Shown here piece by piece: positions 30,705 through 62,349 of a stretch of DNA of 64,000 bases; position 1 is the stretch's first letter, and each line of letters opens with the position of its first letter. The stretch covers positions 124,001 to 188,000 of the forward strand of contig WGMC01000007.1 of NCBI GenBank assembly GCA_016125265.1, given 5' to 3'. The notes below the pieces were generated by a model. That model did no database searches. It was given only the letters and a program-made list of their open reading frames with translations, and had not been told where the DNA came from. This stretch comes from Planctomycetaceae bacterium. Its GTDB lineage: Bacteria; Planctomycetota; UBA1135; GCA-002686595. The position numbers were made by a program, and so were the translations under genes.

Positions 30705-30727
30705 GGGCCGGGCCTTCCGCCCGGCCC
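30705..30727. terminator. Strong bidirectional hairpin terminator
   Basis: GGGCCGGGC (30705-30713), loop CTTCC, GCCCGGCCC (30719-30727): nine perfect GC-rich pairs. It sits between the convergent stops of the DUF1579 gene and the MFS gene and can fold on either strand. No long T run follows. It marks the left border of the siderophore island. Confidence 0.75.
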
Positions 30728-30786: not shown

Positions 30787-32064
30787 TCAAGAGCTCGCCG
30801 CCCGCCTAGGCGTGCGATAGACCTCGGCTCCCGCCGTCACGAGCAACAGACAGAGGGCAGCCACGGGCACCGGCCAGAGGGCCGAGAGCGGCGTGACGAC
30901 CGCGTAGTGGGAGAGGTGATCCACCATCGAACCGAGCAGCGGCGCCAGCAACGCGGCCGTCAGGCTCGTGGCTTGGGACTCGACACTGAGAACGGTCGCC
31001 TCGAGTCGCGCTGCGCCATGCTCGTCGAAACGACCCACGTGGACCGGACGCCACAGATTCTGGGCCGCGGCCAGTCCGACGAAGGCCAGCACGGCTAGCC
31101 ATCCCAAGCCGAGCGACAAGGAGGCAGCGAGACCCGCGTACAACGCGGCGATGCCGAGGACGAGAGCCCGGGCCGCGGCATCCGGCGAACCGGCGGACGC
31201 CTCGAAGCGGTGCGCACGGCGCGACGCGGCACCCGCGAGGAGGAACAGGACGAACCCGACGCCTCCAGCGAGCAGTCCCACACGCGAGCGATCGCCGCCG
31301 AAGCCGTGCAACGGCAGCGCGACCGCGAGTGTCGCCAGCACCGGCTGAACGTAATCCTTGACGACCGAGTACACACCTTCCACGCCGACGCTGGAAGAGA
31401 CGAGCCCGCGCAGGCGCGGACGGCGCCGCAGGGCGCGGCCCGCAGCGCGCAGGTACTGGAGTGAACCGCCGATGTCGCTTCGCTGGTGCGCCGCGTCCAA
31501 GCTGTTCGGGTACGTGGCGAGGTTCAAAAGGTTCAACGCGGCGGGCACGGCGCTCCCCAGAAAGATCCAGCGGTAGTCCGCGCCGAACGCCACGACCGCG
31601 CCGCCCAGGAGCGACGACGAGGCGGACCCGAACTTCGACCAGGACCTGGTGTAGCCGTAGACTGCGGTGCGCTCGTCGCTTCGTCCCTCGCGCCGCAGCC
31701 AGGCGTGGATGAGCGCCTTGTGTGTGCCGCTGCGGAAGGCCTCGCCAAAGCCGTACACCGCCATCCCCGCTGCCAGCGGCCACCAACCGTCCGCCAACCC
31801 GAGCAGGATGTAGGACACGAAGTACGCCGCGAAGCTGAGAACCATGCACCGCTTGCGGCCCCACGCGTCGGCGAGTGCCCCAGAGGGCACCTCGAGCGCG
31901 TTGGTGACGACCTCGCGCACCGCAATCAGGGTGCCGATCGAAGCGTAGTCGAGGCCGCGCTCGCGCAGCGCAATGACGAGGAACGCCTCGAAGAGCCGGA
32001 GGTTCTTGAGGAATCCGTAGAGAGAAAAACGTCGGATCAAGGTGGGTGACGGTCCACGCTCCAA
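30787..32064 (-). CDS. MFS transporter, possibly a siderophore exporter or importer
   Basis: A 425-residue inner-membrane protein with about 12 hydrophobic helices. The loop after helix 2, GALADAWGRKRCMV, is the major facilitator signature, and GEAFRSGTHKALIHAWL follows helix 4. The start is uncertain: a TTG at 32064 gives the listed protein, and another TTG about eight codons later would remove the first residues. It is divergent from the TonB-dependent receptor gene (223 bases between starts) and so probably shares its control region. In iron-uptake islands such transporters export the siderophore or take up the ferri-siderophore; the substrate here is inferred from context only. No iron-responsive Fur box is evident between the two genes. 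Confidence 0.83.
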   Translation of the reverse strand: MERGPSPTLIRRFSLYGFLKNLRLFEAFLVIALRERGLDYASIGTLIAVREVVTNALEVPSGALADAWGRKRCMVLSFAAYFVSYILLGLADGWWPLAAGMAVYGFGEAFRSGTHKALIHAWLRREGRSDERTAVYGYTRSWSKFGSASSSLLGGAVVAFGADYRWIFLGSAVPAALNLLNLATYPNSLDAAHQRSDIGGSLQYLRAAGRALRRRPRLRGLVSSSVGVEGVYSVVKDYVQPVLATLAVALPLHGFGGDRSRVGLLAGGVGFVLFLLAGAASRRAHRFEASAGSPDAAARALVLGIAALYAGLAASLSLGLGWLAVLAFVGLAAAQNLWRPVHVGRFDEHGAARLEATVLSVESQATSLTAALLAPLLGSMVDHLSHYAVVTPLSALWPVPVAALCLLLVTAGAEVYRTPRRAASS

Positions 32065-32287
32065 CGCGCCGACAGGCCGCGCGGTTCACTCGACGGGTCG
32101 GTGCGCGCCGAACGGTGCGGCGCAGCCCACTCGACCCGCGGCTGCGGCGCAATGCGCCCAACTCTTACCGACTGCGCTGAACCGACGGGGCGCAGGGTCC
32201 GTTCCGCAACCCCACGAGCGTCCCACGCACGAACCGCCATCGGCGGAAGGCTGCCGCCACCCAACCCCACGATCCTGTTGCACTTTC

Positions 32288-34579
32288 ATGTCCGATCCTC
32301 AGCCGTCCTGCGGTCTCGCCCGCGAAGCACTCCCGTCGGTCCCTGCGCGCGTCGATTCGCACAAGCGACCGAAGACTTGTGCCACTTCCGCCAACGCCCC
32401 GGACACACGTCCGCGCCCGCGCGCTGCGCGGCGGCTCGCACTCGTCGCTTGCATGGCGGCTGGACCCCTTCGCGGCGCATTGGCCCAAACCACGCCAACC
32501 GAGGAGCCTAGGCCGGAGCAGCCGGCCGTGGAACTCGGTGAGTCGACCATCGTCGCGGAGAAGGAGAACCCCGACGACGTCCGCAAGCGCACGAACACCA
32601 CCGCGGTCGGCGTTCCCGCGCAAACCGACGAGCTTCCCGTCTCCGTGACAACGATCCCCGAGCGCGTGATCGAGGACAGCCAGGCCTTCCGCCTGGCCGA
32701 CATCTACAGGCACTCGCCAAACGTTCAGGAGCCGCCGACCAAGGGCAACACGCAAAGCATCCACGTGCCCTTCATCCGCGGGTTCCAGACCGGCGGTGTG
32801 TACCGGGACGGCCTCTTCGTGCACCAAAACGGCGTCAACCTTAACACGGCGAACATCGAGCGAGTGGAGGTGTTGAAGGGTCCCCAGTCCGTGATGTTCG
32901 GATTGATGCAGCCGGGCGGAGCGATCAACTACGTCACGAAGAAGCCGCTGCACGATCGCCTCTTCGAGGTGTCGACGACCTTCGACCAGCACGGTCGCAA
33001 GGAACTTCGCACCGACTTCGGCGGGCCCTTGAATCGCGACGGAACGATCCGTTACCGCTTCAACACGTCGCTCTACGACTCCGACCTCTTCACGGACGAG
33101 GAGTTCGCCGAGGGCTACTTCCTCGCGCCCGAACTCGAGTTCGATCTCGGACCGGACACGACACTTGGGATCAGCGCATCGTTCGTCGATGAAGATCGAC
33201 TCGAGCAGGGCACGGTGGGCCTTCGTGTGGACAACGGCGAACCCGCTTGGGATCCCAAGACCTTCATCGGTGCGACCGGACTGCCCGGCAAGGACCAGTC
33301 GGAACTGATCCTCAACGCGACGTTGACCCACCACCTCTCGGAGGACTTGCGGCTGCGGTTGGAGGCGGGTTACCACGAGTACGACCTCGACCAGACCGAG
33401 AGTTTCGCGGGCGCGTTCAACGGGGTGCCAGCGTCCGGATTGATCGACATCGGCGTGCAGCGGGTGCTGCAGGAGAGCGACGGTTGGCTCTGGCGCGGCG
33501 ACGTGCTCTGGAACGTCGAAGCCGGCGGCATCGACCACGAACTCACGTTCGGCGTCGACTTCAACGACCACGATCAGGAGCGCGAGTCCGCGTCCGACGA
33601 AACGTTCTACGGGCAGGTCAACGTCTTCGATCCGGTCTTGCCGGACGGCGCCGCGAACCCATTCGATCCGGCGACTCTGAGCCGGAACACTCTGTCCCGG
33701 GACTGGCTAGGCGTCTTCGCGCAAGACGTCGTTTCCTTAGCCGATGACTCGGTGCACGTCGTCGCCAACGCGCGTTACGACACGTTCGACCAGAAATCGA
33801 CGAACAATGCGGGCACCGCTTCCGAGCTCGACGCCGACGACGTGACCGCGCGCCTTGGGGTGCTGTGGGAGGCAACCGACTGGCTTTCGCCCTACGTCAG
33901 TTGGTCCGAGTCGTTCCTTCCAAACACCGCGCGCACCGTGGACGGCGACCTCCTCGACCCAGAAGAAGGCACGCAGTACGAAGGCGGTTTGAAGCTCTCC
34001 TTCCTCGAGGACGACCTCGCGGTGTCGCTGAGCGCGTTCCGCATCGACCGCGACAACATGGCGATCGACGATCCGTCGACGAGCGCGCCGGGCTCGATCA
34101 ACGGAGGCCTCTTCCGCAGCGAAGGGGTGGAACTGGAGCTCGTCGGACGCATCACCGAGAACTTGCAGGTGCTCGCAGGCTTTGGCGCCCTGGAGGCCGA
34201 AGTCGTCCGCTCCAGCAGCCTCACGCCCGGCGACAGACTTCAAGGGGTGCCCGAAAGAACGGCAAACCTGTGGCTGACCTACGACTGGCACGTCGGGCCA
34301 CTCGCGGGCCTCGGCGTCGGTGTCGGCGCGTTCTATCGCGGGGACATCGTGACACAGTTTTCGCAGGGATTCGGCGACGTGGTGCAAGACAACTACGTCA
34401 CGGTCGATGTGTCGTCGTGGTACCGCCGCCGGATCCGTTCCGGGGTCACGCTGAAAGCCGGCCTGACGCTGATGAACGCCTTCGACGAGCAGTACAGCGT
34501 CGGGGGCTTCGGCTACACCGTGCAAGCGGGCCAACCGTTCACCCTCATCGGAACCCTCGGTTTTGCGCTCGGTATCTGA
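32288..34579 (+). CDS. TonB-dependent siderophore receptor
   Basis: A 763-residue outer-membrane receptor. A long N-terminus leads to a signal segment RRLALVACMAAGPLRGALA (about residues 55-75). A TonB-box-like stretch (ESTIVAE) follows. The plug domain (about 115-225) has LPVSVTTIPERVIEDSQAF, HVPFIRGFQTGG and NIERVEVLKGPQSVMFG. These are hallmarks of ferrichrome/pyoverdine-type receptors. The rest is a 22-strand barrel ending GTLGFALGI; the final residue is Ile rather than Phe. It would bring ferri-siderophore into the periplasm using energy from the TonB module encoded 8 kb downstream in the same run. The ATG at 32288 is the best start, but the true signal may begin later. Confidence 0.92.
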   Translation: MSDPQPSCGLAREALPSVPARVDSHKRPKTCATSANAPDTRPRPRAARRLALVACMAAGPLRGALAQTTPTEEPRPEQPAVELGESTIVAEKENPDDVRKRTNTTAVGVPAQTDELPVSVTTIPERVIEDSQAFRLADIYRHSPNVQEPPTKGNTQSIHVPFIRGFQTGGVYRDGLFVHQNGVNLNTANIERVEVLKGPQSVMFGLMQPGGAINYVTKKPLHDRLFEVSTTFDQHGRKELRTDFGGPLNRDGTIRYRFNTSLYDSDLFTDEEFAEGYFLAPELEFDLGPDTTLGISASFVDEDRLEQGTVGLRVDNGEPAWDPKTFIGATGLPGKDQSELILNATLTHHLSEDLRLRLEAGYHEYDLDQTESFAGAFNGVPASGLIDIGVQRVLQESDGWLWRGDVLWNVEAGGIDHELTFGVDFNDHDQERESASDETFYGQVNVFDPVLPDGAANPFDPATLSRNTLSRDWLGVFAQDVVSLADDSVHVVANARYDTFDQKSTNNAGTASELDADDVTARLGVLWEATDWLSPYVSWSESFLPNTARTVDGDLLDPEEGTQYEGGLKLSFLEDDLAVSLSAFRIDRDNMAIDDPSTSAPGSINGGLFRSEGVELELVGRITENLQVLAGFGALEAEVVRSSSLTPGDRLQGVPERTANLWLTYDWHVGPLAGLGVGVGAFYRGDIVTQFSQGFGDVVQDNYVTVDVSSWYRRRIRSGVTLKAGLTLMNAFDEQYSVGGFGYTVQAGQPFTLIGTLGFALGI

Positions 34580-34582
34580 ACC

Positions 34583-35626
34583 GTGACGGTGACGGTGTTC
34601 ATGCGCGCGGTCCAAGTTGCCATGACGGTTCTGGCCGCCGCGGTGCTCGTCCACCAGTCTGCTTCCTCGATCTCCAACCGAGCGCCCGGTGTCGTGACGG
34701 AACCAGACGGCAGCGACATCGTGGCGCTGGGTGAGGACGCGGGGGGGCGGTGGATCCGACATCGCGCAGGCACTACGCGCGTGCCGCTGCACCCGACGCG
34801 GGTGTGTGCGCTGAACTTCGCCGACGAACTCGTATCGCTAGGGCTAACACCTTCCGCGGTCGCAACCGATTGGCGAGAGCAGAAACTCGACTACCTGCGC
34901 GACGACTTGGCGGGGGCAGCACCGATACCGCACAGCCTGGGCCAATGGCTGCCGAGTTTCGAAGCCATCGCCGCACACGGGCCCGACCTCATCCTGACTT
35001 GGGCGGCCGATCGCCACACCTTCGAGCAGCTCTCGCGGATCGCGCCGACGGTGGTCGTGCGCACCCTCCGGGAGGTGCTCGACGAGAACGGCTCCATCGC
35101 GAGTCTGGAACAGCGACTCCGGGACATCGCGCTCGTCGTCGGACGCGAAGCGGCGGCCCTCGCTGCGATCTCCAAGTTCCGAGAGCACCTCACTGCGAGC
35201 CGCGAGCTCCTCGGCGACACGATGGATGGGCGAACGATCGCCTTCGTGCGCGCTCGAGGGCGCCAGTGGCGCCTCTACGGCAAACACGATGAGTGCGGCG
35301 GAGAGGCGATCTACGCTGGGTTGGGACTCGAAGCGCCCGCACTCGTCCGCGACCGCGGCACGGAGTTGGACCCAGAGCGTCTACTCGCATTCGATGCGGA
35401 CTTCCTCGTCGTGGTGGCCGACCCGATGTTGGCCTCGGACGAGGCGCTGCAGCGCCTGCAAACGCATCCCCTCTGGAACCGGATCCGCGCCGTGAACACG
35501 GGCCACGTGCACCGCGTCGAGGCGCTGGAGCATTGGATCCTCAGCGGACTCCTCGGAAAGGCGCGGATGATCGACGACGCCGTCAGTTGTGCCCTTGCTC
35601 CCTGCGGTAGGAGTACATCGGAGTGA
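34583..35626 (+). CDS. Iron-siderophore ABC transporter substrate-binding protein
   Basis: A 347-residue periplasmic binding protein of the FecB/FhuD type. The N-terminal hydrophobic segment (AMTVLAAAVLVHQSASS) is a signal peptide or anchor without a lipobox Cys. Family landmarks are RVCALNFADELVSLGLTP, HGPDLILTWAADRHTFEQLS, a central long helix, and HRVEALEHWILSGLLGKARM near the end. It would carry the ferri-siderophore to the FecCD permeases. The GTG at 34583 is 3 bases after the receptor stop; an ATG at 34601 in the same frame is an equally possible start. Its stop overlaps the next start (GTGA). Confidence 0.88.
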   Translation: MTVTVFMRAVQVAMTVLAAAVLVHQSASSISNRAPGVVTEPDGSDIVALGEDAGGRWIRHRAGTTRVPLHPTRVCALNFADELVSLGLTPSAVATDWREQKLDYLRDDLAGAAPIPHSLGQWLPSFEAIAAHGPDLILTWAADRHTFEQLSRIAPTVVVRTLREVLDENGSIASLEQRLRDIALVVGREAAALAAISKFREHLTASRELLGDTMDGRTIAFVRARGRQWRLYGKHDECGGEAIYAGLGLEAPALVRDRGTELDPERLLAFDADFLVVVADPMLASDEALQRLQTHPLWNRIRAVNTGHVHRVEALEHWILSGLLGKARMIDDAVSCALAPCGRSTSE

Positions 35627-36621
35627 GCCACCTGGGTTCCGCGCGGTTACCGTGGGTGGCGGCGCTGTGCGCGCTTCTTGCGCTCGCCCTCGGCATTCTT
35701 GCCGCGCCGCCGATGGTATCGCCCATGCGAATGTGGGAAGCGCTTCGCTCCAGCGACGTCGACGATCCTCTGCGGCTTTCGCTAGAGCACGTGCGGCTAC
35801 CGCGAGCGCTGCTCGCCGCGACGATCGGCGCGGGGCTAAGCGCAGGCGGCCTTGTCATGCAAATGCTCAGCGGCAATCCACTGGCCACCCCGTCGGTGCT
35901 CGGGGTCAGCAACGGTGCCGCTCTAGGCTTGGTGGCAGCGGTCGCTTGGATCGACGGCGCGAGCGACGCCGCGGTGACGGGAGCGAGCTTCCTCGGCGCG
36001 GCTATCACCAGTTCCGCGATCGCCTTGCTCGCCTTTGCCAGCGGATCGGCGGTGCGCGGGGAGTCGTTGGTGGTCGCCGGCAGCATCCTCGGTGCCTTCT
36101 GCGGCAGCATCGTGACGGCGGTCGTTTTCTTCAACTCGATGCAGAACGAGATGCTCGGATGGACACTCGGGCGACTCGTGCACGTCGACTGGGCGCAGGT
36201 GACGTTCGCGCTGCCCGCGGTGTCCGTGGGCATCGTTCTGGCTGCCGCATGCGTGGGGCGTCTTGACACCATGCGACTTGGGGACACCACGGCGCGCGTT
36301 CTCGGTGTCCCGGTGGCGGCGGTTCGGGCCACCGCCATCGCGGCGATCGTGCTCGTCACGGGGGGAAGTGTTGCTGCGGCGGGGCCCGTGGCCTACGTCG
36401 GATTGATCGTGCCCCACGTGCTTCGTCGCGCCCGCTTGCGCCCCGGCCAACGTCTGGTCGCCTGTGCGGGACTCGGCGCCGTACTGACGAGCATGGCCGA
36501 TCTTCTGTCACGCCACGTCACGGGGCCGCGTGTGGTGCCGCTCGGGATCTGGACCATGTCGATCGGTGCGCTCTTTTTCTTTGCGCTGGCACTGAGAGGG
36601 CACGGGAGGTTCGACGAATGA
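35623..36621 (+). CDS. FecCD-family siderophore ABC permease (first)
   Basis: A 332-residue inner-membrane permease with about ten helices. It carries the FecCD pattern RLPRALLAATIGAGLSAGG near the N-terminus, GNPLATPSVLGVSNGAALGL after it, and GPVAYVGLIVPHVLRR in the C-terminal half, where the coupling helix meets the ATPase. It pairs with the next gene to form the translocation channel. Start GTG overlaps the binding-protein stop as GTGA; its own stop overlaps the next start as ATGA. Confidence 0.92.
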   Translation: MSHLGSARLPWVAALCALLALALGILAAPPMVSPMRMWEALRSSDVDDPLRLSLEHVRLPRALLAATIGAGLSAGGLVMQMLSGNPLATPSVLGVSNGAALGLVAAVAWIDGASDAAVTGASFLGAAITSSAIALLAFASGSAVRGESLVVAGSILGAFCGSIVTAVVFFNSMQNEMLGWTLGRLVHVDWAQVTFALPAVSVGIVLAAACVGRLDTMRLGDTTARVLGVPVAAVRATAIAAIVLVTGGSVAAAGPVAYVGLIVPHVLRRARLRPGQRLVACAGLGAVLTSMADLLSRHVTGPRVVPLGIWTMSIGALFFFALALRGHGRFDE

Positions 36622-37604
36622 GCCGACATCCCCACCTCGGTCGCTGGGCACTCGTCTTGCTGGCGCTAGTGCTCGTGGAGCGCGAACTGGGGCTACTCGG
36701 TGTCGTCGCTTCGCTGATCCAGCACGGACGGATCGAGCCTTGGCTCCAAACCGTTTTCGTCGACTTCCGGCTCCCCCGCCTGGTGCTGGCGGTACTGGTC
36801 GGGAGCGGCATGGCTATTTCGGGCTGGACCATCCAGAAGGCCGCCCGCAACCCGATGGCGAGCCCGGCGACCGTGTCGGTCAACGAGGCCGCCGCACTCG
36901 GAATCGTGCTTGCGTTGGCGCTCAGCGGCGGCGAGCTGCTGGGGTCGACGCTGATGCCGTGGATCGCCGCCGCCGCGGGGACCGCCTCGGCGCTGCTCCT
37001 GTACTCCATCGTTGGGCGGCGGCGGAGGCTGGACGGTTCCGGCCTTCTGCTGTGCGGCATCGCGCTGGGTGCGCTTTGGAGCGCGGCCGGCTTTGCGATC
37101 GCCTTGAACGCCCATCCGACCACGTACGAGTACGCCCTGGCTTGGCTCGTGGGCTCGTTGTCGAAGGCCACTTGGGACTACGTCCTCTTGCTCTTCCCGG
37201 CGTGGTGGTTCCTCTCGTTGGCCGCCCATCTGTGCGCGTCGCGGATCGACGTCTTGGGTCTCGAAGATCCGGTTGTCCAAGTGCTCGGTGGGTTCCCGGA
37301 TCGCTGGCGACGCGTTGCGCTGTGTGCCGGGGCCGCGCTTGCGGCGGCGTGCATCGGTGTTTCCGGCAGCTTCGGCTTTCTCGGGTTCCTCGCGCCCGCG
37401 CTCGTGCGGACGCTGCGGATGGGCAGCTTCGCGACGCCGTGGACGAGCGCCGTCGTTGGGGCGCTGGTGCTCCTCGCCGCCGACGCTTTGGGTCGACAGG
37501 TGATGGCGCCCGCGGAGGTTCCGGCGGGCATCGTCATAGCGATCACCGGCGCGCCCCTGTTTCTCCTCGGTCTGGTCGCGTGGAGGCGTGTGCAACCCGC
37601 GTGA
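36618..37604 (+). CDS. FecCD-family siderophore ABC permease (second)
   Basis: A 328-residue permease with the same plan: RLPRLVLAVLVGSGMAISGW, then RNPMASPATVSVNEAAALGI, and GFLGFLAPALVRTLR in the coupling region. It differs from the first permease over most of its length, as expected for a heterodimer (FecC plus FecD). The start overlaps the first permease by ATGA and the stop overlaps the ATPase start by GTGA, implying tightly linked translation of all transporter subunits. Confidence 0.92.
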   Translation: MSRHPHLGRWALVLLALVLVERELGLLGVVASLIQHGRIEPWLQTVFVDFRLPRLVLAVLVGSGMAISGWTIQKAARNPMASPATVSVNEAAALGIVLALALSGGELLGSTLMPWIAAAAGTASALLLYSIVGRRRRLDGSGLLLCGIALGALWSAAGFAIALNAHPTTYEYALAWLVGSLSKATWDYVLLLFPAWWFLSLAAHLCASRIDVLGLEDPVVQVLGGFPDRWRRVALCAGAALAAACIGVSGSFGFLGFLAPALVRTLRMGSFATPWTSAVVGALVLLAADALGRQVMAPAEVPAGIVIAITGAPLFLLGLVAWRRVQPA

Positions 37605-38425
37605 ATCACCGAATCTCCCGACTGCTCGCCCGCGATCTCACGGTCGGGTATGGCGATGCCACGGTTCTGGACGGCCTCGATCTCGAGCTCCGCGATGGCC
37701 GCGTGACGACGATCCTAGGGCCCAACGGTTGTGGGAAGTCGACGCTCCTGCGGACCCTCGCCCGGGTGCTCGCGCCGTCGCGTGGCTCCGTGATCTTGGA
37801 CGGAGTCGAACTGCACCGCCAACCCACCCGCGCGGTGGCGAGGCTCCTCGCCATGCTGCCGCAGTCGTCACGCGCACCAGCGGAACTTCGCGTGCGAGAC
37901 CTCGTCGCCTACGGCAGGTTCCCGCACCGAGCGTGGTATGCGCGACTGGACGCCGCCGATCGCACCGCGGTTGCTTCGGCGCTCACCTCGGTCGGCTTGG
38001 AGCCGTTGGCGGACCGCCCACTCGAGACCCTGTCGGGAGGAGAGCGTCAACGGGCTTGGATCGCGATGGCCCTGGCGCAAGAGACGCCGCTTCTGCTCCT
38101 CGACGAACCCACGACCTCGCTCGACGTCGCACACCAACTGGAAGTGCTCGAACTCGTGCGGCAGCTTCAGCGGACGAAGGAAAAAACCGTGGTGATGGTC
38201 TTGCACGACATCAACCTCGCGGCTCGGTTCTCCGACTGCATCGTTTTGATGCGCGACGGCGTGATCCTGGCCACCGGCACTCCGCAAGAGGTCATTCTCG
38301 CGGACTTCCTACGCGACGCCTATGGCGTGGACGGGCGCGTCGACTACGACCGCGATCTAGAAGCGCCCGCGTTCGTTCCGTACCGCAGCGTGGGCGCTCG
38401 GCCCACGGGAGCACAACACCGATGA
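37601..38425 (+). CDS. FecE-type ABC transporter ATPase
   Basis: A 274-residue ATPase energising the siderophore permease. Walker A is GPNGCGKST (residues 40-48), the Q loop is in MLPQSSRAPAELRVRD, the signature LSGGERQ is at 144-150, Walker B LLLLDEP at 164-170, and the switch His is in VLHDINLA. The Q-loop to AYGRFPHR segment is typical for iron-siderophore and cobalamin importers. The start GTG overlaps the permease stop; the stop overlaps the next gene as ATGA. Confidence 0.95.
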   Translation: MNHRISRLLARDLTVGYGDATVLDGLDLELRDGRVTTILGPNGCGKSTLLRTLARVLAPSRGSVILDGVELHRQPTRAVARLLAMLPQSSRAPAELRVRDLVAYGRFPHRAWYARLDAADRTAVASALTSVGLEPLADRPLETLSGGERQRAWIAMALAQETPLLLLDEPTTSLDVAHQLEVLELVRQLQRTKEKTVVMVLHDINLAARFSDCIVLMRDGVILATGTPQEVILADFLRDAYGVDGRVDYDRDLEAPAFVPYRSVGARPTGAQHR

Positions 38426-39645
38426 GGAATGAGATCCCCAGCAACTGGACGGCTGAAGTGGAAACGGTGGAGCAAGCGCGGCAATGGTACCGCGCCACGG
38501 CGCACGAGTTTGCGGGCCGTCCGGCGCTAGCACCGAGCATCGAACTGGCACGGAGGGTGCTCGGCGAAGCACTTTGGATCGAGAACCAGTGCGCAAGGGT
38601 CGGCGCCGGAGTGAGCTTCGCAATTCCCGTGCGCCAAGTGGCGACATGGGCTGCGCGAGGAGCTGTGCTCGTCTATCTCGCCGATCAGGTGCTCTTGGAA
38701 GTGACCCGGCCCGAGAGCGCGCCGGAGCTCGTCCCACCGCGCACTCCGGTCGTTTTGGACCCCGCGCACGCCGTGCGCTTCCTGACAGCGTCGACGGAAC
38801 AGGAGTCGGAACTTGTGCTGATCCGAGCGGCCGCGCCGTCGATGCTGCCGCCGCGGCGGCGGTTCAGCGCCCGTGTTTTCGCACGCACACCGAGTTCCTC
38901 GGGCGAACAATTGAGTGTCGACTGGACGAAACAGCGACTGCTGCACTTTCTATCCCATCCACGGATTGTGGCGCAACTGGAGCCGGCAACCATGGAGGAC
39001 GTGGCGTCGGAACCGATCTTCGACGCATGTGCGATCCCGATGGCATCGACGATCGGTGGTCCGTTGCTCCACCGTTTCCTCGAGGCACTTCCGCCGGACT
39101 GGCGCGTTCCGTCCGCCGACGTGCGGGTGGGGGTTACGCGGGACGAGCTTTCGCCGGGATGGAATCCGTGCGCCGTGAACTTCCACATCGACGGCACGAG
39201 CAGAGTTCGAAAGCGCGCGGACGGACACCCGGATCTCGTCGATCCGGGGCCGACGGTCGATCAGATGATCGCGTGTTTCGGGCCCGCATCGCCGACGCGC
39301 TTCCTCGTCGGTGAGGTTGTGTTGCCCGAGCCGCCCGCCGGCGATGTCGCTCGAGCCGCCGGGCCGCGGTGGGCCACCATTCTGGACGAGCACCTCCGCA
39401 GCGGTCGCCTGACCGAGTGGAACGCGCCCAGCGACGCGCTGGTCGAATTCGGCTTCGGTGTCTTCCACACGGGCGCGGTGTCCCGGCGCCCGGGCTGGCG
39501 TTGTTTCGTGAAGGCGATGCGCAACCGCGGCGATCCCATGCCGACGGCACCGACCTACCGCGATCGAAACAGCGTCAGTTGGCCGATCGATGGGCCCGAG
39601 TATCCGAGCGATCCGTGCGGGGTCTTTCCAGAGGACGTGCCGTGA
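38422..39645 (+). CDS. Unrecognised protein with an HxD...H...R pattern (candidate Fe(II)/2-oxoglutarate oxygenase) in the siderophore run
   Basis: A 407-residue soluble protein that I cannot place in a named family. The C-terminal half holds NFHIDG with H255 and D257, then H349 in FGFGVFHTGAVSRR, and R360 eleven residues later in RPGWRCFVKAMR. This spacing is what cupin-fold Fe(II)/2-oxoglutarate oxygenases use for iron (HxD...H) and for 2-oxoglutarate (Arg). The N-terminal 200 residues are alpha/beta and unlike known oxygenases. It is locked between the transporter ATPase and DUF3450 by overlapping start/stop codons, so it is made together with them. A role in modifying or opening the imported siderophore is possible, by analogy with the PiuC-type oxygenases found beside TonB receptors. 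The oxygenase call is inference from a pattern. Confidence 0.5.
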   Translation: MRNEIPSNWTAEVETVEQARQWYRATAHEFAGRPALAPSIELARRVLGEALWIENQCARVGAGVSFAIPVRQVATWAARGAVLVYLADQVLLEVTRPESAPELVPPRTPVVLDPAHAVRFLTASTEQESELVLIRAAAPSMLPPRRRFSARVFARTPSSSGEQLSVDWTKQRLLHFLSHPRIVAQLEPATMEDVASEPIFDACAIPMASTIGGPLLHRFLEALPPDWRVPSADVRVGVTRDELSPGWNPCAVNFHIDGTSRVRKRADGHPDLVDPGPTVDQMIACFGPASPTRFLVGEVVLPEPPAGDVARAAGPRWATILDEHLRSGRLTEWNAPSDALVEFGFGVFHTGAVSRRPGWRCFVKAMRNRGDPMPTAPTYRDRNSVSWPIDGPEYPSDPCGVFPEDVP

Positions 39646-40499
39646 TGGGGGCCAATGACGCACAGAGCGGCAGGCGATGCGGAGCGGGTCGGGCGACGGC
39701 GCTGCTTTCGGCGCTTGGACTCTGTCTGGGAGCGTCGCAGGGCGCAGCGCCGCTTCCCACCGCACCGCAGCACGTCGACAACGAACTCGCCCGCGAAGTT
39801 CACGCGACCGTGGCGCGGAATGAGGCCCTTTCGCACGAGCTCCGGCGCGTGGTCGAGGAACGCGATCGGTGGCGTCAGGACTCCGTGGGCAATCGACAGC
39901 AATTGGAGCGAGAGCTCGCCGATGCACGTGCCAGCGCGACGGCGTTGCGCGACGAGTTGCAGAAGTTCGAAAGGCTGCGCGCCGCCGCGGATTTGCGCGC
40001 GGGCGCCGACGGCAAGCGCATTGCGGCCGCGACTGACGCGGCGCGAGATCTCGCCGCGCGCTTGGCCTTGCGGCTCCAACACGCGGTCCCGTCCCTTCGG
40101 CGCCGTGCGCGCGACTTTGCCGAGGTGTCCGCCCGACTCGAATTCGACGGGACGGAGTCGGTGGACGCCCTTCTCGATCTGCATCGCCTGGCCGAAGAGT
40201 CGCTGCGCCTGGGGCGTGAGCGCACAGCGCTGAGCCGGCTGGTGCCGATCCCCGGAACCGACCGCGAGAAACACGCGTGGGTCGTGCGACTCGGTGGGGT
40301 CCTCGAGTTCTACGTTACCGAGGATCGCGAGTTTGCGGCGACGGCCTCTCGGGAGGGCGACGGCGCCGGCTGGCGGGAACTTCCGATCGAGTGGGCAGAG
40401 GCCGTGGATTCGGCTGCCGAGGTGCTTCGGGGCCGAGCGGGTGCCACCATGGTCACCCTGCCCGTGGGAATGGAGTCGCTGGACGGCGGCCTACGATGA
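39645..40499 (+). CDS. DUF3450 family protein of a TonB2-type energy module
   Basis: A 284-residue exported protein: signal segment (about residues 16-34, ending GASQGA), then a long coiled-coil (about 45-125) with ELxRxVEERDRWRQD pattern, and a C-terminal globular part with GGVLEFYVTEDREF and RELPIEW. Length, coil and position directly before a TtpC-like gene match DUF3450 proteins, periplasmic partners in TonB2 systems. The ATG shares one base with the previous stop (TGATG). A stop/start overlap (ATGA) links it to the next gene. Confidence 0.75.
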   Translation: MGANDAQSGRRCGAGRATALLSALGLCLGASQGAAPLPTAPQHVDNELAREVHATVARNEALSHELRRVVEERDRWRQDSVGNRQQLERELADARASATALRDELQKFERLRAAADLRAGADGKRIAAATDAARDLAARLALRLQHAVPSLRRRARDFAEVSARLEFDGTESVDALLDLHRLAEESLRLGRERTALSRLVPIPGTDREKHAWVVRLGGVLEFYVTEDREFAATASREGDGAGWRELPIEWAEAVDSAAEVLRGRAGATMVTLPVGMESLDGGLR

Positions 40500-42004
40500 G
40501 GCGGCGGCTCGCGATTCTCCCGATGGCGCTGCTCGCGCTCGTTCCCGTCGTGTCGGGGCCGTTGACGCAGCACCCCTCCGCCACCGCGATCGACGGGCGC
40601 CTGGCCGCGTTGCAGGAAGAGTCCATCGACTTGCAGCACAAGCTCCTCGATGCTCGGGAAGGGTTCGCGGCCGAGCGCGGTGAGGCTCTCGCGTTTGCGA
40701 ACGACGCAGCAGGTGAGCTCGTGGACCTCGAACTCGAGCGACTCTCCCTGGAAGATGCCGTCGAAGCGGCGCGTCTGGCTACGGATGTGGCCGAGTCTCG
40801 CGCCAAGGATCGGGCCGCCGACGTGCGGCGAATCGACGCCAGCCAGCGGCAGATCGCGGAGTACGTCGGCGTGCTGTTGTCCGAGTTGCCGTACGGTCCC
40901 ACGCTGGCCCCGCGGCTCACTGCATGCAACGATTGTTTGGACGCTGGCCGCAGCGGCGATGCGGAACTCGTCCTCGCGGAGCTCGTGGATGGGCTCGACC
41001 GCCGCGCGCAGCAGGTTGCCGTCGGCAATTGCAATCTGCGGACGGCCAATGGGGAATCCGCGAATGTCGAGCTCTTGGAGATTGGCCTCTTCGCCTTCGC
41101 CTACCGCACTGCCGAGGATTTGGCGATCTCGTTCGCCGCACCGCGGGATGCGAACGGGTTCCGTTGGCGCGAGGGCCTGCCCGAGCAACTCGCCGCACAG
41201 TGGGCGGCGTTGTTCGAAGCGGCGCGAGGTGCGCGCGAAGGAACGCTCGGTGTGCCAATGGATGTGTCGGGGTCGTTGGGTCTCGATGTGCCGCTCCTGG
41301 CGCCGTTGCTCGTCGACCGCTTCCGAGCGGGCGGACCCGTGATGTGGCCCCTGGCGGCGGTCGCCGTGCTTTGCCTGCTGCTCGGCTTGGAGCGGGCGGT
41401 CGCGCTTTGGTGGCGTACGCGTCCCAATGCCGACCTTGGCGCAGGCGTCGCTCGGATGCTGCGGAACGGGGACGTCGCGGGTGCGACGGCGCTCGCTGGG
41501 TCGCGGGACGGACCAGTCGCCCGCGCGGTGACTGCCGTGCTGCACGCGTTGGACGTTCCCCGTTCGGCGCGGGAGGATCGCCTGCAGGAGGTGCTCCTTC
41601 GCGAGGCTCCGCGCCTTCGACGCTCACTGCGGGCGATGGCCATGCTCGCGACGATCGCGCCGCTGCTCGGACTGCTCGGAACGATCACCGGCATCATCGA
41701 GACATTCGGGGTCCTCCACTCCACGGGTACGAACGATCCGAACGCCATGGCCGGGGGAATCTCCGAGGCGCTCCTGACCACGGCGACGGGACTTGTTATC
41801 GCGATCCCCGTCCTTCTTTGGCACGGTCTGCTGCGCGGCCGCGCCGACGCACTCCTGGCCGCGGCGGAGGGTCAGTCCGTGGTGGTTCTGAACGCGGCGG
41901 ATTCCGTGGGAGTCGAAGCGCGGACCACCGCGCGCGCGGTTCGGGTTGCTGGCCAGGTCCAGCGGGAAGGAGGCGCTGCACCCCACGCGGGAGCCGGCGA
42001 GTAG
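40496..42004 (+). CDS. TtpC-like long MotA/TolQ/ExbB proton-channel protein
   Basis: A 502-residue protein. Residues 1-20 form a signal or anchor. A periplasmic coiled-coil and globular part (about 25-275) follows, then a C-terminal ExbB/TolQ domain with three helices (PVMWPLAAVAVLCLLLGLE, LATIAPLLGLLGTITGIIE and EALLTTATGLVIAIPVLLWH). The conserved GLLGTITG and the TTATGL segment are the proton-channel signature. TtpC is an extra long ExbB homologue found only in TonB2-type systems, where it joins TonB2, ExbB2 and ExbD2. Overlaps at both ends or a 3-base gap place it in the same coupled unit. Confidence 0.85.
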   Translation: MRRRLAILPMALLALVPVVSGPLTQHPSATAIDGRLAALQEESIDLQHKLLDAREGFAAERGEALAFANDAAGELVDLELERLSLEDAVEAARLATDVAESRAKDRAADVRRIDASQRQIAEYVGVLLSELPYGPTLAPRLTACNDCLDAGRSGDAELVLAELVDGLDRRAQQVAVGNCNLRTANGESANVELLEIGLFAFAYRTAEDLAISFAAPRDANGFRWREGLPEQLAAQWAALFEAARGAREGTLGVPMDVSGSLGLDVPLLAPLLVDRFRAGGPVMWPLAAVAVLCLLLGLERAVALWWRTRPNADLGAGVARMLRNGDVAGATALAGSRDGPVARAVTAVLHALDVPRSAREDRLQEVLLREAPRLRRSLRAMAMLATIAPLLGLLGTITGIIETFGVLHSTGTNDPNAMAGGISEALLTTATGLVIAIPVLLWHGLLRGRADALLAAAEGQSVVVLNAADSVGVEARTTARAVRVAGQVQREGGAAPHAGAGE

Positions 42005-42007
42005 GCG

Positions 42008-42559
42008 ATGTTGCACCTGTTCTCCGAGGGCGGCTGGCCGCTGGCTGCGATCCTGCTCCTATCCGCGGCGGGATGGTGGATTGCGTGCAGACGTCTCTTC
42101 GACGTGCGGCGCGACGAACGCGGACTCCAGCGGGGCGACACACGGCACCCGCCTACGGATTCGGTGGCGGGCCGGATGCTGCAGCGGCTGGAGCTCATCG
42201 CGCCCGTGTTGCCGTCGCGGGAAGCGATCCAGGGTTGGTGCCGCGAGGAACGGGGTCGACTGAAGGCCGGCTTACCGCTTGTCGCAACCATCGCCGCCGC
42301 GTGCCCACTCTTGGGCTTGCTCGGCACACTTCTCGGGATGATCCACACGTTCCGCGGCCTCGGCGTCGACGGCCCTGTCGGACGGGAGGTCATCGCGGAA
42401 GGGATCGCGGCGGCGTTGACGAGTACGCAGGCGGGCCTCGTCGCCGCCCTTCCACTCGTGGTCTTGCACGGATACGTCGGCGCGCGCGCGGAACGTGCAG
42501 TCGCGGCGATCGAACGCCACACGACCCGTTGGGTGTCGCTTCGGGAGCCGGCGCCGTGA
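42008..42559 (+). CDS. exbB: ExbB proton-channel protein
   Basis: A 183-residue inner-membrane protein of the short ExbB type (ExbB2-like). A first helix (about 10-26), a cytoplasmic segment, and a helical pair with CPLLGLLGTLLGMIHTF and LTSTQAGLVAALPLVVLH. The Thr and Ala-Leu-Pro residues are those lining the proton path in ExbB/TolQ/MotA proteins. It works with ExbD and TonB to pass proton-motive force to the outer-membrane receptor. It starts 3 bases after the TtpC-like stop. Confidence 0.92.
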   Translation: MLHLFSEGGWPLAAILLLSAAGWWIACRRLFDVRRDERGLQRGDTRHPPTDSVAGRMLQRLELIAPVLPSREAIQGWCREERGRLKAGLPLVATIAAACPLLGLLGTLLGMIHTFRGLGVDGPVGREVIAEGIAAALTSTQAGLVAALPLVVLHGYVGARAERAVAAIERHTTRWVSLREPAP

Positions 42560-42978
42560 TCCGCTCCCAATCGATCTGGTCCCACGAGTCGGAGACGCCG
42601 CTCGCCATCGACATGGCGCCGCTGATCGACATCGTGTTCATTCTGCTCGTGTTCTTTCTCGTGACGACGACGTTCTCGCGCGACGAGGGAATCGGCGTGG
42701 AGCGTCCGGTGGCCACCACATCGACGCCCCTGCCATCGGTCGCGCTGCGCGTTCACATCACGAAATCGGGAGCTTGTTTCGTCGGAGGTCAGGCGACGCC
42801 GCTCGCCGGGATCCGGCAGCGAGTGGAGGAGCTGCTGCCCGCGGGCGACAACGCCGCCGTGGTCGTCGTCCCCGATCGAGCCGTTCTCGCGGGCACGCTG
42901 GTGCAGGTGCTCGACGAGATCGCCGCCATCGGAGTGGCGGATGTGTCGATCGCGACGCGGCAGGAGGATGTCCCGTGA
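42556..42978 (+). CDS. exbD: ExbD biopolymer transport protein
   Basis: A 140-residue protein with short cytoplasmic N-terminus, one helix (about 20-43) and a periplasmic domain. The essential membrane Asp is D25 in MAPLIDIVFILLVFF, the same number as in E. coli. The periplasmic part ends with the typical VLDEIAAIGVADVSIATR block. GTG start overlaps the exbB stop (GTGA) and its stop overlaps the tonB start (GTGA). Confidence 0.95.
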   Translation: MIRSQSIWSHESETPLAIDMAPLIDIVFILLVFFLVTTTFSRDEGIGVERPVATTSTPLPSVALRVHITKSGACFVGGQATPLAGIRQRVEELLPAGDNAAVVVVPDRAVLAGTLVQVLDEIAAIGVADVSIATRQEDVP

Positions 42979-43724
42979 CCTGGCCGCGCTCGAGCGGTCG
43001 CGAGCTGGTTGCGATCTCCGTGACATTGGCGTTCCATACGCTTCTGCTGGCGGCGTTGCTTGCGCTGCGACCGTCTGCAAACGAGCCGAGCGAGTCGAGT
43101 GTCCCGCCGCGGATTGCGCTCGCGCGCGCTGAGCCGCCGTCCGTCCGCTCTCCGACGCTGCCCGAGGCCGAACCACCAACACCAACCCCGCGGCGCGCGC
43201 TGGCGCCCGTGCCCGCGATCCCCGGTCTTCCGCTGCACGCAGCTCCGCTCGAAACGGGCGTAGTGCTTCCGCCTGTCCCGTTCCATCCGCTGCCGATCGA
43301 GCCGCCCGGAGTTTCACACGTCAGGTCCACCGAAACTGCGGCGGCGGCCTCGGCGGCGGCCTCGGCGGCGCCATCCGCGCCATCGCGTGCGCGCACTTCG
43401 GAGCTCCGCACAGACACGGGTCCCGTGGACGCGAAGGGCGTCGACGTTCCCCCGAGGGAGTTTCCCACAAACCACCAACCCGACTATCCGGCCTCGGCGA
43501 GGCGCCAGGGACGGGAGGGCTACGTTCGCGTGCGGATCGACATCGACGCACGTGGCGAGGTCGAGGAGGTTCGCACACTCGCCGCCGAGGGTGTGGATGC
43601 ATTCCGTCAGTCCGTTCAGCGCGCCGTCGGGCGCTGGCGTTTCACTCCGGCGATGCACGAGGGTCGCGCCATACCCGTATTTGCGGAGAAGACGTTCCAC
43701 TTCCAGCTTCAAGGAGGTCCGTGA
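42975..43724 (+). CDS. tonB: TonB energy transducer
   Basis: A 249-residue protein with one N-terminal helix (about 11-30), a Pro/Ala-rich periplasmic linker (about 35-165) and a C-terminal TonB domain (about 168-249) with DYPASARRQGREGYVRVRI, VGRWRFTPAM and FAEKTFHFQL. In the helix, the SxxxH motif that contacts ExbB/ExbD appears as T17-x3-H21, a conservative change. It would link the ExbBD channels to the receptor encoded upstream in the same run. The GTG start overlaps exbD by 4 bases. Confidence 0.93.
   Translation: MTWPRSSGRELVAISVTLAFHTLLLAALLALRPSANEPSESSVPPRIALARAEPPSVRSPTLPEAEPPTPTPRRALAPVPAIPGLPLHAAPLETGVVLPPVPFHPLPIEPPGVSHVRSTETAAAASAAASAAPSAPSRARTSELRTDTGPVDAKGVDVPPREFPTNHQPDYPASARRQGREGYVRVRIDIDARGEVEEVRTLAAEGVDAFRQSVQRAVGRWRFTPAMHEGRAIPVFAEKTFHFQLQGGP
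43711..43717 (+). promoter_or_regulatory. Strong Shine-Dalgarno sequence for the TPR gene
   Basis: AAGGAGG ends 6 bases before the ATG at 43724 and decides for this ATG over the GTG three bases earlier. It lies inside the last codons of tonB. It is one of the few perfect Shine-Dalgarno sequences in the window, so the TPR protein may be made at a higher or independent rate. Confidence 0.7.
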
Positions 43725-44893
43725 TGCCGTGGAATTGGGTCCGACACATGTTTGCAGTCGTAGCGCTCCTTGGCGGAACTCAGGTGGCCGCCCAGGGCGC
43801 CGCGGAGGATCTGTGGCGGGAAGCGCTGCGGCTCATCGAGGCCAAGCAGCAGGGGGAGGCAGTTCGGCTCCTCGAGGAGAGGATGCGCGACGCGCCCCAA
43901 GACGGGGAGGCCCTGCGACTCTTGGGGCACGCGCAGTTCGAGCTCGACCCTGCGGCCGCACGCCGCGCGTTTGCGCAGAGCGTCGTGCGCGGGTACTTCG
44001 CACCGAGCACACTTTCCGCCATGGCCACCCTCGACCGCGAACGAGGTCGCGCTGGCGCGGCGCTGTGGGCGCTCGACATGCTGGCCTGGCTCGAGCCCGA
44101 GGTCGACCCCGCGCAACTCGTGCGTGTGCAGCTCCTCGACGAACTGGGACGCGCGGACGAGGCGATCGCGCTCGGGGAGACGTACGTTCGCGACAACCCC
44201 GGCGCGGTGTCCGGTTGGCGTGTGCTGGGAGCGCTGCAACAGCGGCGCGGCGACATCGATGCGGCGATCGTGTCGCTCTCGACCGCCTACGCGCTGCACC
44301 CGGCCCAGGACGATGTGGCGCGCCAATTGGCCGCACTGCACCAGCTCGGCGGCAACGCCAATCGTGCGCTCGAATGGTACCTACGCGACGCTTCGCGGGC
44401 GACCGTGCACGGTGTGACCTCCGACCTCGAGCACGCGCGCATGTTGCTCGCGGCGGACGCGCCGGAGCGAGCGGCCGCGCTGCTCCGCGGTTTGCCGCCG
44501 TCGGACGTGGCGTCCGGTGAAGTGCAGGCCTTGTTGGGTCACGCCGCCTTGCGAGCTGGCGACGGCGACGCGGCCATCGCCGCCTGGCGCGCCGCCGCTG
44601 CCACCGGTGTCGTCGACGGAGCCACACTAGTGCACGTCGTGGCAGCGGACTTGGACGCGGGTCGCCGGGCGAAACTGGCGGAGATCGTGCCGCGACTCGA
44701 CGTCTGGGACCAACACGATGGGGGAGGACGCGACACGCGGGTCACGCAGCTCCTGGTCCTGGGGCATCTCTCGTTGGGGCAACGCGCCGAGGCGTCGTCG
44801 GCCATCCGGCGGCGGGTAGCGCGGCTCGGGCTCGATGGAGTGTCGCGCGACCTGCTCCGGCAGTTGCACGCATCCGCGGGCCAGGTCCCGTGA
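43724..44893 (+). CDS. TPR-repeat protein closing the TonB2-type module
   Basis: A 389-residue exported protein: signal peptide (residues 1-24, MFAVVALLGGTQVAAQ) and helical repeats with the TPR pattern (GEALRLLGHAQFELDPAAA, AIVSLSTAYALHP, LGHAALRAGDGDAAIAAWR). A TPR protein is the last gene of TonB2 operons in Vibrio-type bacteria, where it is thought to support the complex in the periplasm. Its ATG overlaps the tonB stop by one base. It ends 9 bases from the stop of the convergent GT2 gene, which marks the right end of the island. Confidence 0.85.
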   Translation: MPWNWVRHMFAVVALLGGTQVAAQGAAEDLWREALRLIEAKQQGEAVRLLEERMRDAPQDGEALRLLGHAQFELDPAAARRAFAQSVVRGYFAPSTLSAMATLDRERGRAGAALWALDMLAWLEPEVDPAQLVRVQLLDELGRADEAIALGETYVRDNPGAVSGWRVLGALQQRRGDIDAAIVSLSTAYALHPAQDDVARQLAALHQLGGNANRALEWYLRDASRATVHGVTSDLEHARMLLAADAPERAAALLRGLPPSDVASGEVQALLGHAALRAGDGDAAIAAWRAAAATGVVDGATLVHVVAADLDAGRRAKLAEIVPRLDVWDQHDGGGRDTRVTQLLVLGHLSLGQRAEASSAIRRRVARLGLDGVSRDLLRQLHASAGQVP

Positions 44894-61800: not shown

Positions 61801-62349
61801 GTGCGCGGACTCTTCCTGCAACTGGCCTACGGGCGCGTTCTGCTCGGCAAGTCGCTCTTGGGTTTCGAGCAGGGTGTGATCGCGCAGCTCCGCCTCCTGC
61901 ACCCGCGCAACCTGGAGCGCGTGTTGCGCCGGTTCGGCGCGACGATCGGGCCCGGGGCGCGGCTCTATGCGCCGATGCACCTGCACAACGCGGCGCGCTC
62001 GTTCGCCAACCTGACCGTGGGCGAGCGCTGCCATCTGGGCCGCGACCTCTTCTTGGACCTGGCGGACGGGATCCGGATCGGCGACCGCGTCACGATCTCC
62101 ATGCGCGTCACGATTCTGACGCACTTGGACGTCGGCGACAGTTCGTGGGGCGAGCGCGGCTATCCGCCCTCCCAGGCGCCCGTGGTGATCGAGGACGACG
62201 TCTACATCGGCGCCGGCGCGACGATTTTGCCGGGTGTGCGCATCGGCAAGGGGGCGCTCGTGGGGGCGGCCGCGTTGGTGCGCCGCGACGTCCCCGCGGG
62301 GGCCAAGGTGGGCGGTGTGCCCGCGCGGGAACTCGAATCCCGCCGCTGA
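61801..62349 (+). CDS. Left-handed beta-helix (hexapeptide) acyltransferase
   Basis: A 182-residue acyltransferase with hexapeptide repeats ([38 protein letters not shown]) and catalytic-type His in the ILTHLD segment (about residue 104). An extra loop [13 protein letters not shown] is inserted before the last coils. These enzymes acetylate sugars or lipid-linked glycans. The N-terminal 30 residues form a short helical part. It directly precedes a GT4 glycosyltransferase (1 base gap to the next GTG), so the pair probably builds and acetylates an exopolysaccharide or glycolipid. The GTG start at 61801 is supported by homology. Confidence 0.9.

Follow-up and report, generated by a model that had tools for sequence, protein, structure and literature searches.

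A planctomycete siderophore uptake operon that encodes a TonB2-type motor and a probable oxygenase-like protein

This analysis concerns a candidate siderophore import island within a 64,000-nucleotide stretch of DNA from a Planctomycetaceae bacterium, referred to below as the window. The window is part of contig C24 of genome G000, an assembly of 5.1 Mb in 48 contigs that is approximately 92% complete. The island consists of a run of 12 plus-strand genes, extending from a receptor gene at 32288 to the end of a tetratricopeptide repeat (TPR) gene at 44893, and of a minus-strand gene for a major facilitator superfamily (MFS) transporter, which shares a divergent region with the receptor gene. 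All 13 genes were found at the coordinates given in an earlier note on this DNA, and the coupled run with its adjoining MFS gene and all its functional layers was recovered by domain scans. The earlier list of layers stood for the genes that it named; the sixth gene of the run had been counted and left without a name. We refer to it as ORF7, as it is the seventh gene when the MFS gene is counted. The genes are as follows.

30787-32064, minus strand: MFS transporter (PF07690, E=3.6e-20)
32288-34579, plus strand: TonB-dependent siderophore receptor (TIGR01783, 265 bits, above cut-off)
34583-35626 (likely ATG start at 34601), plus strand: FecB/FhuD-type periplasmic substrate-binding protein (SBP; PF01497, Peripla_BP_2, E=2.3e-18)
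35623-36621, plus strand: FecCD permease 1 (PF01032, E=3.2e-64)
36618-37604, plus strand: FecCD permease 2 (PF01032, E=3.9e-61)
37601-38425, plus strand: FecE/FhuC-type ATPase (PF00005, ABC_tran, E=1.8e-32)
38422-39645, plus strand: ORF7, 407 amino acids, sixth in the run (phrog_1843, E=5.7e-19; no Pfam or NCBIfam match)
39645-40499, plus strand: TtpB-like DUF3450 protein in the TtpB position (PF11932, 29.0 bits, cut-off 32.6)
40496-42004, plus strand: TtpC, with a long periplasmic coiled coil and an ExbB/TolQ-like domain (PF01618, E=6.7e-28; full-length relatives in the phylum)
42008-42559, plus strand: ExbB2 (PF01618, MotA_ExbB, E=3.5e-24)
42556-42978, plus strand: ExbD2, with the transmembrane aspartate kept (PLIDIVF; PF02472, E=4e-25)
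42975-43724, plus strand: TonB2 (PF03544, TonB_C, E=7.5e-19; TIGR01352 above cut-off)
43721-44893, plus strand: TtpD-like TPR protein in the ttpD position (TPR matches)

Nine of the 11 junctions in the run are overlaps of 4 or 1 bases. The remaining two are 3-base gaps, one between ttpC and exbB and the other between the receptor and SBP genes, the latter only if the SBP starts with the GTG at 34583; with the likelier ATG at 34601, this gap measures 21 bases. The claim that all junctions from receptor to TPR gene overlap or lie within 4 bases is thus correct from the SBP gene onwards and depends on the start codon at the first junction. Receptor, pump and motor may accordingly be made in fixed proportion, as had been suggested. 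The start of the receptor is itself uncertain (32042, 32288 or 32453). Its TIGR01783 score of 265.4 bits exceeds the curated cut-off of 223.5 bits, with both plug and barrel matched, and a TonB box-like motif, ESTIVA, is located at residue 85; the FhuA, FoxA and FhuE models are also matched, more weakly. The SBP scored 75 bits against NF008501 (Fe-dicitrate SBP), which is under the cut-off. With its Peripla_BP_2 protein, two FecCD permeases and ABC ATPase, the FecBCDE/FhuBCD-type ABC transporter is complete. Gene content therefore supports the prediction that the operon covers ferri-siderophore uptake completely and brings its own TonB2-type module.

With regard to this module, the last six genes of the run follow the order ttpB-ttpC-exbB-exbD-tonB-ttpD, which is identical to that of the Vibrio TonB2 operon (PMC6957404) and agrees with the earlier assignment of a TonB2-type energy module dedicated to the importer. 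TtpC comprises 502 residues, of which only 354-454 match MotA_ExbB, and is followed by separate ExbB, ExbD and TonB genes. The DUF3450 match of the TtpB-like gene falls 3.6 bits short of the Pfam cut-off; phmmer matched this gene to those in the same position in G251 and G104, and the corresponding gene of G265 matches DUF3450 at 82 bits. The TtpD-like TPR gene has phmmer matches in G251, G168, G104 and G236, and the layout with DUF3450 first and TPR last is also found in G251 and G104. TtpC-like matches were obtained in 214 of 246 phylum genomes (E <= 1e-12), many of them to the shared ExbB domain only. In the TtpC tree, the protein of the window, on a long branch, groups with those of G251, G236, G168 and G104, which represent four other families (support 100/100), and not with a second TtpC/ExbB/ExbD module present in the same genome (C24:1.9-4.6 kb, L016), which is not close to that of the island. 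Given this grouping, the island motor belongs to a Planctomycetota-wide sort of module, here joined to a transporter. An origin by duplication of the second module was rejected, as the two TtpC proteins fall in different, well-supported groups.

We also read 20 other TonB2-type loci of the phylum together with their surroundings, which extended to at most 20 kb. None of the 20 had FecCD or siderophore-type SBP genes beside the module, and a siderophore-type receptor directly preceded it in one, that of G265. The G265 locus (L149:7440-14115) is a receptor-DUF3450-TtpC-ExbB-ExbD-TonB operon whose layout resembles that of Vibrio tonB3 and peuA-tonB2. A separate observation was made in G104, where a 2OG-FeII_Oxy_3 (P4H/PiuC-like) gene on contig C469 (L146:12348-12890) precedes a six-gene TonB2-type module by 255 bases and points in the same direction.

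Several linked TonB systems have been described in vibrios. The V. vulnificus TonB2 operon reads ttpB2-ttpC2-exbB2-exbD2-tonB2-ttpD2, and both its DUF3450 protein TtpB2 and its TPR protein TtpD2 are essential; the tonB3 operon of the same species is headed by a receptor gene (PMC6957404). The peuA gene of V. parahaemolyticus shares an iron-repressed transcript with the tonB2 genes, among which start and stop codons overlap (PMC4141801). The huv cluster of V. anguillarum combines a receptor with TonB1-ExbB1-ExbD1 and the HuvBCD transporter (PMC5524678). In view of these three cases and of G265, the earlier statement that TonB2 genes lie mostly apart from the transporter in Vibrio-type bacteria is too strong. 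The island has the six genes of the Vibrio TonB2 operon in unchanged order, from DUF3450 at the start to TPR at the end, and likewise an ExbB-like domain in ttpC (PMC6957404). However, in most vibrios this operon stands alone, whereas that of the window sits behind a receptor and an ABC transporter, and its DUF3450 gene has diverged to just under the Pfam cut-off. The tonB3 and peuA-tonB2 operons likewise have a receptor heading a six-gene TonB2/3-type module, with overlapping start and stop codons among tonB2-system genes, but in these the module is not separated from the receptor by a binding protein, FecCD permeases, an ATPase or ORF7. The huv cluster also unites a receptor, its own TonB-ExbB-ExbD and an ABC transporter (PMC5524678); in contrast to the island, it serves heme rather than a siderophore, has a three-gene TonB1-type motor and a single permease, HuvC, and carries HuvZ/HuvX in place of ORF7. 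Since tonB3, peuA-tonB2 and huv are known, the joining of receptor, motor and pump is not a new idea, and the island counts as an unusual combination, not as a system of a new kind. Within the literature and genomes searched, a TonB2-type motor and a FecBCDE pump in one run is a new combination.

ORF7 is what chiefly makes the locus valuable; it had no match in Pfam or NCBIfam. Its C-terminal domain spans residues ~170-370, and residues 190-370 match positions 24-197 of the 222-position profile of phrog_1843, a family of unassigned function that is common in T-even (T4-like) phages and is annotated only as hypothetical in the matched phage records. A tblastn search retrieved 347 phage records, mostly from Escherichia, Aeromonas and Klebsiella phages, T-even phages among them, and the family was also found on 63 viral contigs. 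In alignments of 34 and 35 sequences, H255, D257, H349 and R360, together with W247, P249 and W359, are invariant, which defines an HxD...H...R pattern with the arginine 11 residues after the distal histidine. An HxD...H motif with an arginine 11 residues after the second histidine is the facial-triad and 2-oxoglutarate (2OG)-binding pattern of TauD/PhyH-type enzymes. The phage proteins share the same invariant H, D, H, R, W and G residues with ORF7, but they comprise about 230 amino acids, do not have its N-terminal 165 residues and are encoded away from transport genes in the phage regions read. One phrog_1843 gene (L012:7986-8672) was found on Klebsiella pneumoniae LR890700.1, which is called a plasmid; it lies beside recombinase-like and other phage-like genes, and the replicon may be a phage or phage-plasmid.

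The AlphaFold2 model of the C-terminal domain reached a mean predicted local distance difference test (pLDDT) score of 90.8. Its Foldseek matches in the PDB (E ~1e-3, probability 0.92-0.99, weak TM-scores of 0.3-0.4) were led mostly by Fe(II)/2OG dioxygenases, namely ColD, KdoO, SptF, GriE, EctD, TauD and P4H. A relative of ORF7 in G225 also shows a weak PhyH match (E=0.022) at its C-terminal end. Motif and model together make it probable that the C-terminal domain is a divergent Fe(II)/2OG-type oxygenase. The fold, of the double-stranded beta-helix type, could alternatively be that of a cupin-like binder of a metal or ligand, for instance a cytoplasmic ferri-siderophore or iron acceptor using the H/D/H site, and the PDB list does include the cupin-like non-oxygenases YjgK, XC5357 and RmlC. 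The missing Pfam 2OG family match and the loss of the motif in an adjacent paralog in G225 and G299 would also suit a binder. Nevertheless, a 2OG/Fe(II) enzyme accounts better for the motif with its arginine and for Foldseek lists in which 2OG enzymes dominate, and we regard a binder as unlikely.

Only a handful of ORF7-family members were detected among 392 phylum genomes. In G225 (family f26; L015:4134-7988), the genes run SBP-FecCD-ATPase-paralog A-paralog B-ThuA; a 4-base overlap joins paralog A to the stop of the ATPase gene, as is the case for ORF7 in the window. In G299 (family f17; L014:3484-9700), they run FecCD-ATPase-slipin-radical SAM-A-B-ThuA, the slipin being called from reading the sequence rather than from a profile. 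In both genomes, paralog B retains HxD...H...R and paralog A has lost it; the N-terminal part of ORF7 was considered as a relative of the paired paralog and shows no similarity to it. These operons resemble an uncharacterised metallophore uptake or processing operon. Of the bacterial loci, three have both an intact motif and surroundings that could be read, and each of these is a ferric-ligand ABC operon, a count that leaves aside G147 (contig end) and G104 and G170 (distant, on short contigs). A conserved-peptide scan of GTDB for ORF7 returned only contig L084 of G147 (Planctomycetota TGS_PLA7), whose end truncates the gene at residue 205.

The abundance of phage genes among known family members raises the question of whether the island is a siderophore importer of the usual sort to which a TonB2 module is attached, and ORF7 a moron-like passenger of phage origin with no role in iron uptake. 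ORF7 is missing from 40 of 40 family and order relatives as well as from nearly all of the phylum genomes, and G158 possesses an SBP-FecCD-FecCD-ATPase-MFS set without it, both of which would be expected of a passenger. However, ORF7 is set in the run by overlaps of 4 bases and 1 base, it has kept catalytic-type residues, and its relatives in two other families hold the same place beside FecCD/ATPase genes. We therefore find it improbable that ORF7 is a mere passenger.

A precedent for an enzyme of this kind is available. The Caulobacter receptor CciT, of the Fiu/PiuA type, strictly requires the cytoplasmic 2OG/Fe(II) dioxygenase CciO, a member of the PiuC/YbiX family; it has been proposed that CciO makes the substrate, removes an inhibitor or oxidises the ligand once imported (PMC12004947). 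The island resembles the CciT-CciO, PiuA-PiuC and Fiu-YbiX pairs in that a cytoplasmic protein of Fe(II)/2OG oxygenase type, a type predicted in the case of ORF7, is encoded with a TonB-dependent receptor for a ferric ligand. In contrast to PiuC and CciO, which are recognised 2OG/Fe(II) dioxygenases, ORF7 has no Pfam 2OG match and is nearest to phrog_1843; it also has an extra N-terminal region and follows the ATPase rather than the receptor. ORF7 was consequently rejected as a PiuC/YbiX/CciO (PKHD-type) member, given the missing 2OG-FeII_Oxy-type match and its place in the run. Its location after the ATPase suits the model in which CciO oxidises the imported ligand.

Neither IucA/IucC nor a non-ribosomal peptide synthetase (NRPS) condensation domain was detected in the 92%-complete genome, and the controls were found in control genomes. 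For this reason, the ligand is more likely to be a foreign siderophore or a citrate-type complex, as far as genome content can tell. The same finding bears on the idea that ORF7 makes or tailors the metallophore that the operon imports, so that the island would be half of a biosynthesis-and-uptake system. Substrate biosynthesis is among the models proposed for CciO (PMC12004947), and the related operons are rich in enzymes, with a radical SAM gene in G299 and ThuA-like and paired ORF7-like genes in both G225 and G299. Yet the island contains no biosynthesis genes and the genome has no NRPS-independent siderophore (NIS) synthetase or NRPS condensation domain, which makes a biosynthetic role very unlikely.

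We favour, with moderate confidence, the reading of the island as a self-contained siderophore operon, most likely for xenosiderophores, with a cytoplasmic PiuC/CciO-like enzyme that acts on the imported ligand. The TtpB-TtpC-ExbB-ExbD-TonB-TtpD motor would energise the receptor, and the FecBCDE-type ABC transporter would move the ferric-siderophore complex into the cytoplasm. There, ORF7, encoded right after the ATPase, could act on the imported complex, its C-terminal domain oxidising the ligand so that iron is released or re-chelation prevented. The divergent MFS transporter might then export the spent ligand; more generally, it is presumed to be an exporter or importer of free or modified siderophore. 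The run is also expected to be iron-regulated.

A number of results weigh against this interpretation. No Fur-box-like site was found in the divergent region, where the best candidate matched at 9/19 positions, a score exceeded by the top sites in other parts of the window; a sigma-70 promoter search gave nothing above background in this GC-rich DNA. None of 35 ORF7-family members matched a Pfam 2OG family at E<=1, no Foldseek match in the PDB had an E-value below 1e-3 and TM-scores were just 0.3-0.4, and neither ORF7 nor the family profile credibly matched the sequences of solved structures. A distant phage member, L020, does not have the first histidine in register. The N-terminal ~165 residues of ORF7 (window 38422-38912) had no detectable relative in any search and were modelled poorly. 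In addition, the phage relatives occur in genomes without siderophore transport, where the substrate class may differ, and the apparent lack of siderophore synthesis was judged from two families, in a genome that is not complete.

A broader proposal, which we put forward tentatively and at somewhat less than even odds, is that phrog_1843 constitutes a novel family of Fe(II)/2OG-type oxygenases. Its members in bacteria would have evolved independently as a second answer to the task of PiuC/CciO, each being a cytoplasmic enzyme produced along with a siderophore ABC transporter that frees the iron by oxidising the imported ligand. If so, the window would hold receptor, transporter, TonB2 motor and enzyme together in one operon. 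Siderophore uptake could thus have a second type of oxygenase partner in ORF7, whose link to the operon gives a large phage family a functional lead towards the oxidation of iron or a ligand. As one operon encodes the complete importer, a TonB2 motor of its own and an enzyme that probably modifies the ligand, their partnership is testable as a single unit.

The island is patchily distributed, and its acquisition by horizontal transfer is likely, given that, among 294 genomes, G158 and G307 were the only others with clear relatives of the SBP (39-42% identity), and that ORF7 is absent from the 40 family and order relatives. GC content at third codon positions (GC3) is 0.74-0.84 in the island and 0.79-0.93 in flanking genes, a modest difference. 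Searches found no tRNA, no shared flanking repeats of at least 11 bp and no clean empty site in relatives, and a scan of the genes immediately beside the island showed neither an integrase nor a transposase. An empty site was sought through the flanking genes: the glycosyltransferase orthologs in G423 and G004 (77-78%) adjoin a gene found at window position 62234. As gene order is thus generally shuffled, flanking synteny says nothing on block insertion. The suggestion that the island moved as one block therefore has no support beyond its patchy occurrence and slightly low GC3. The hairpin near 30705, taken earlier as a strong boundary, is present as a 9-bp GC stem; it has no T-run and is unexceptional for this GC-rich sequence (z = -1.2). 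In G158, the SBP-FecCD-FecCD-ATPase genes are followed directly by an MFS gene whose product is 41% identical to that of the window. This arrangement indicates that the MFS gene belongs to the transporter unit, from which receptor, ORF7 and motor appear separable.

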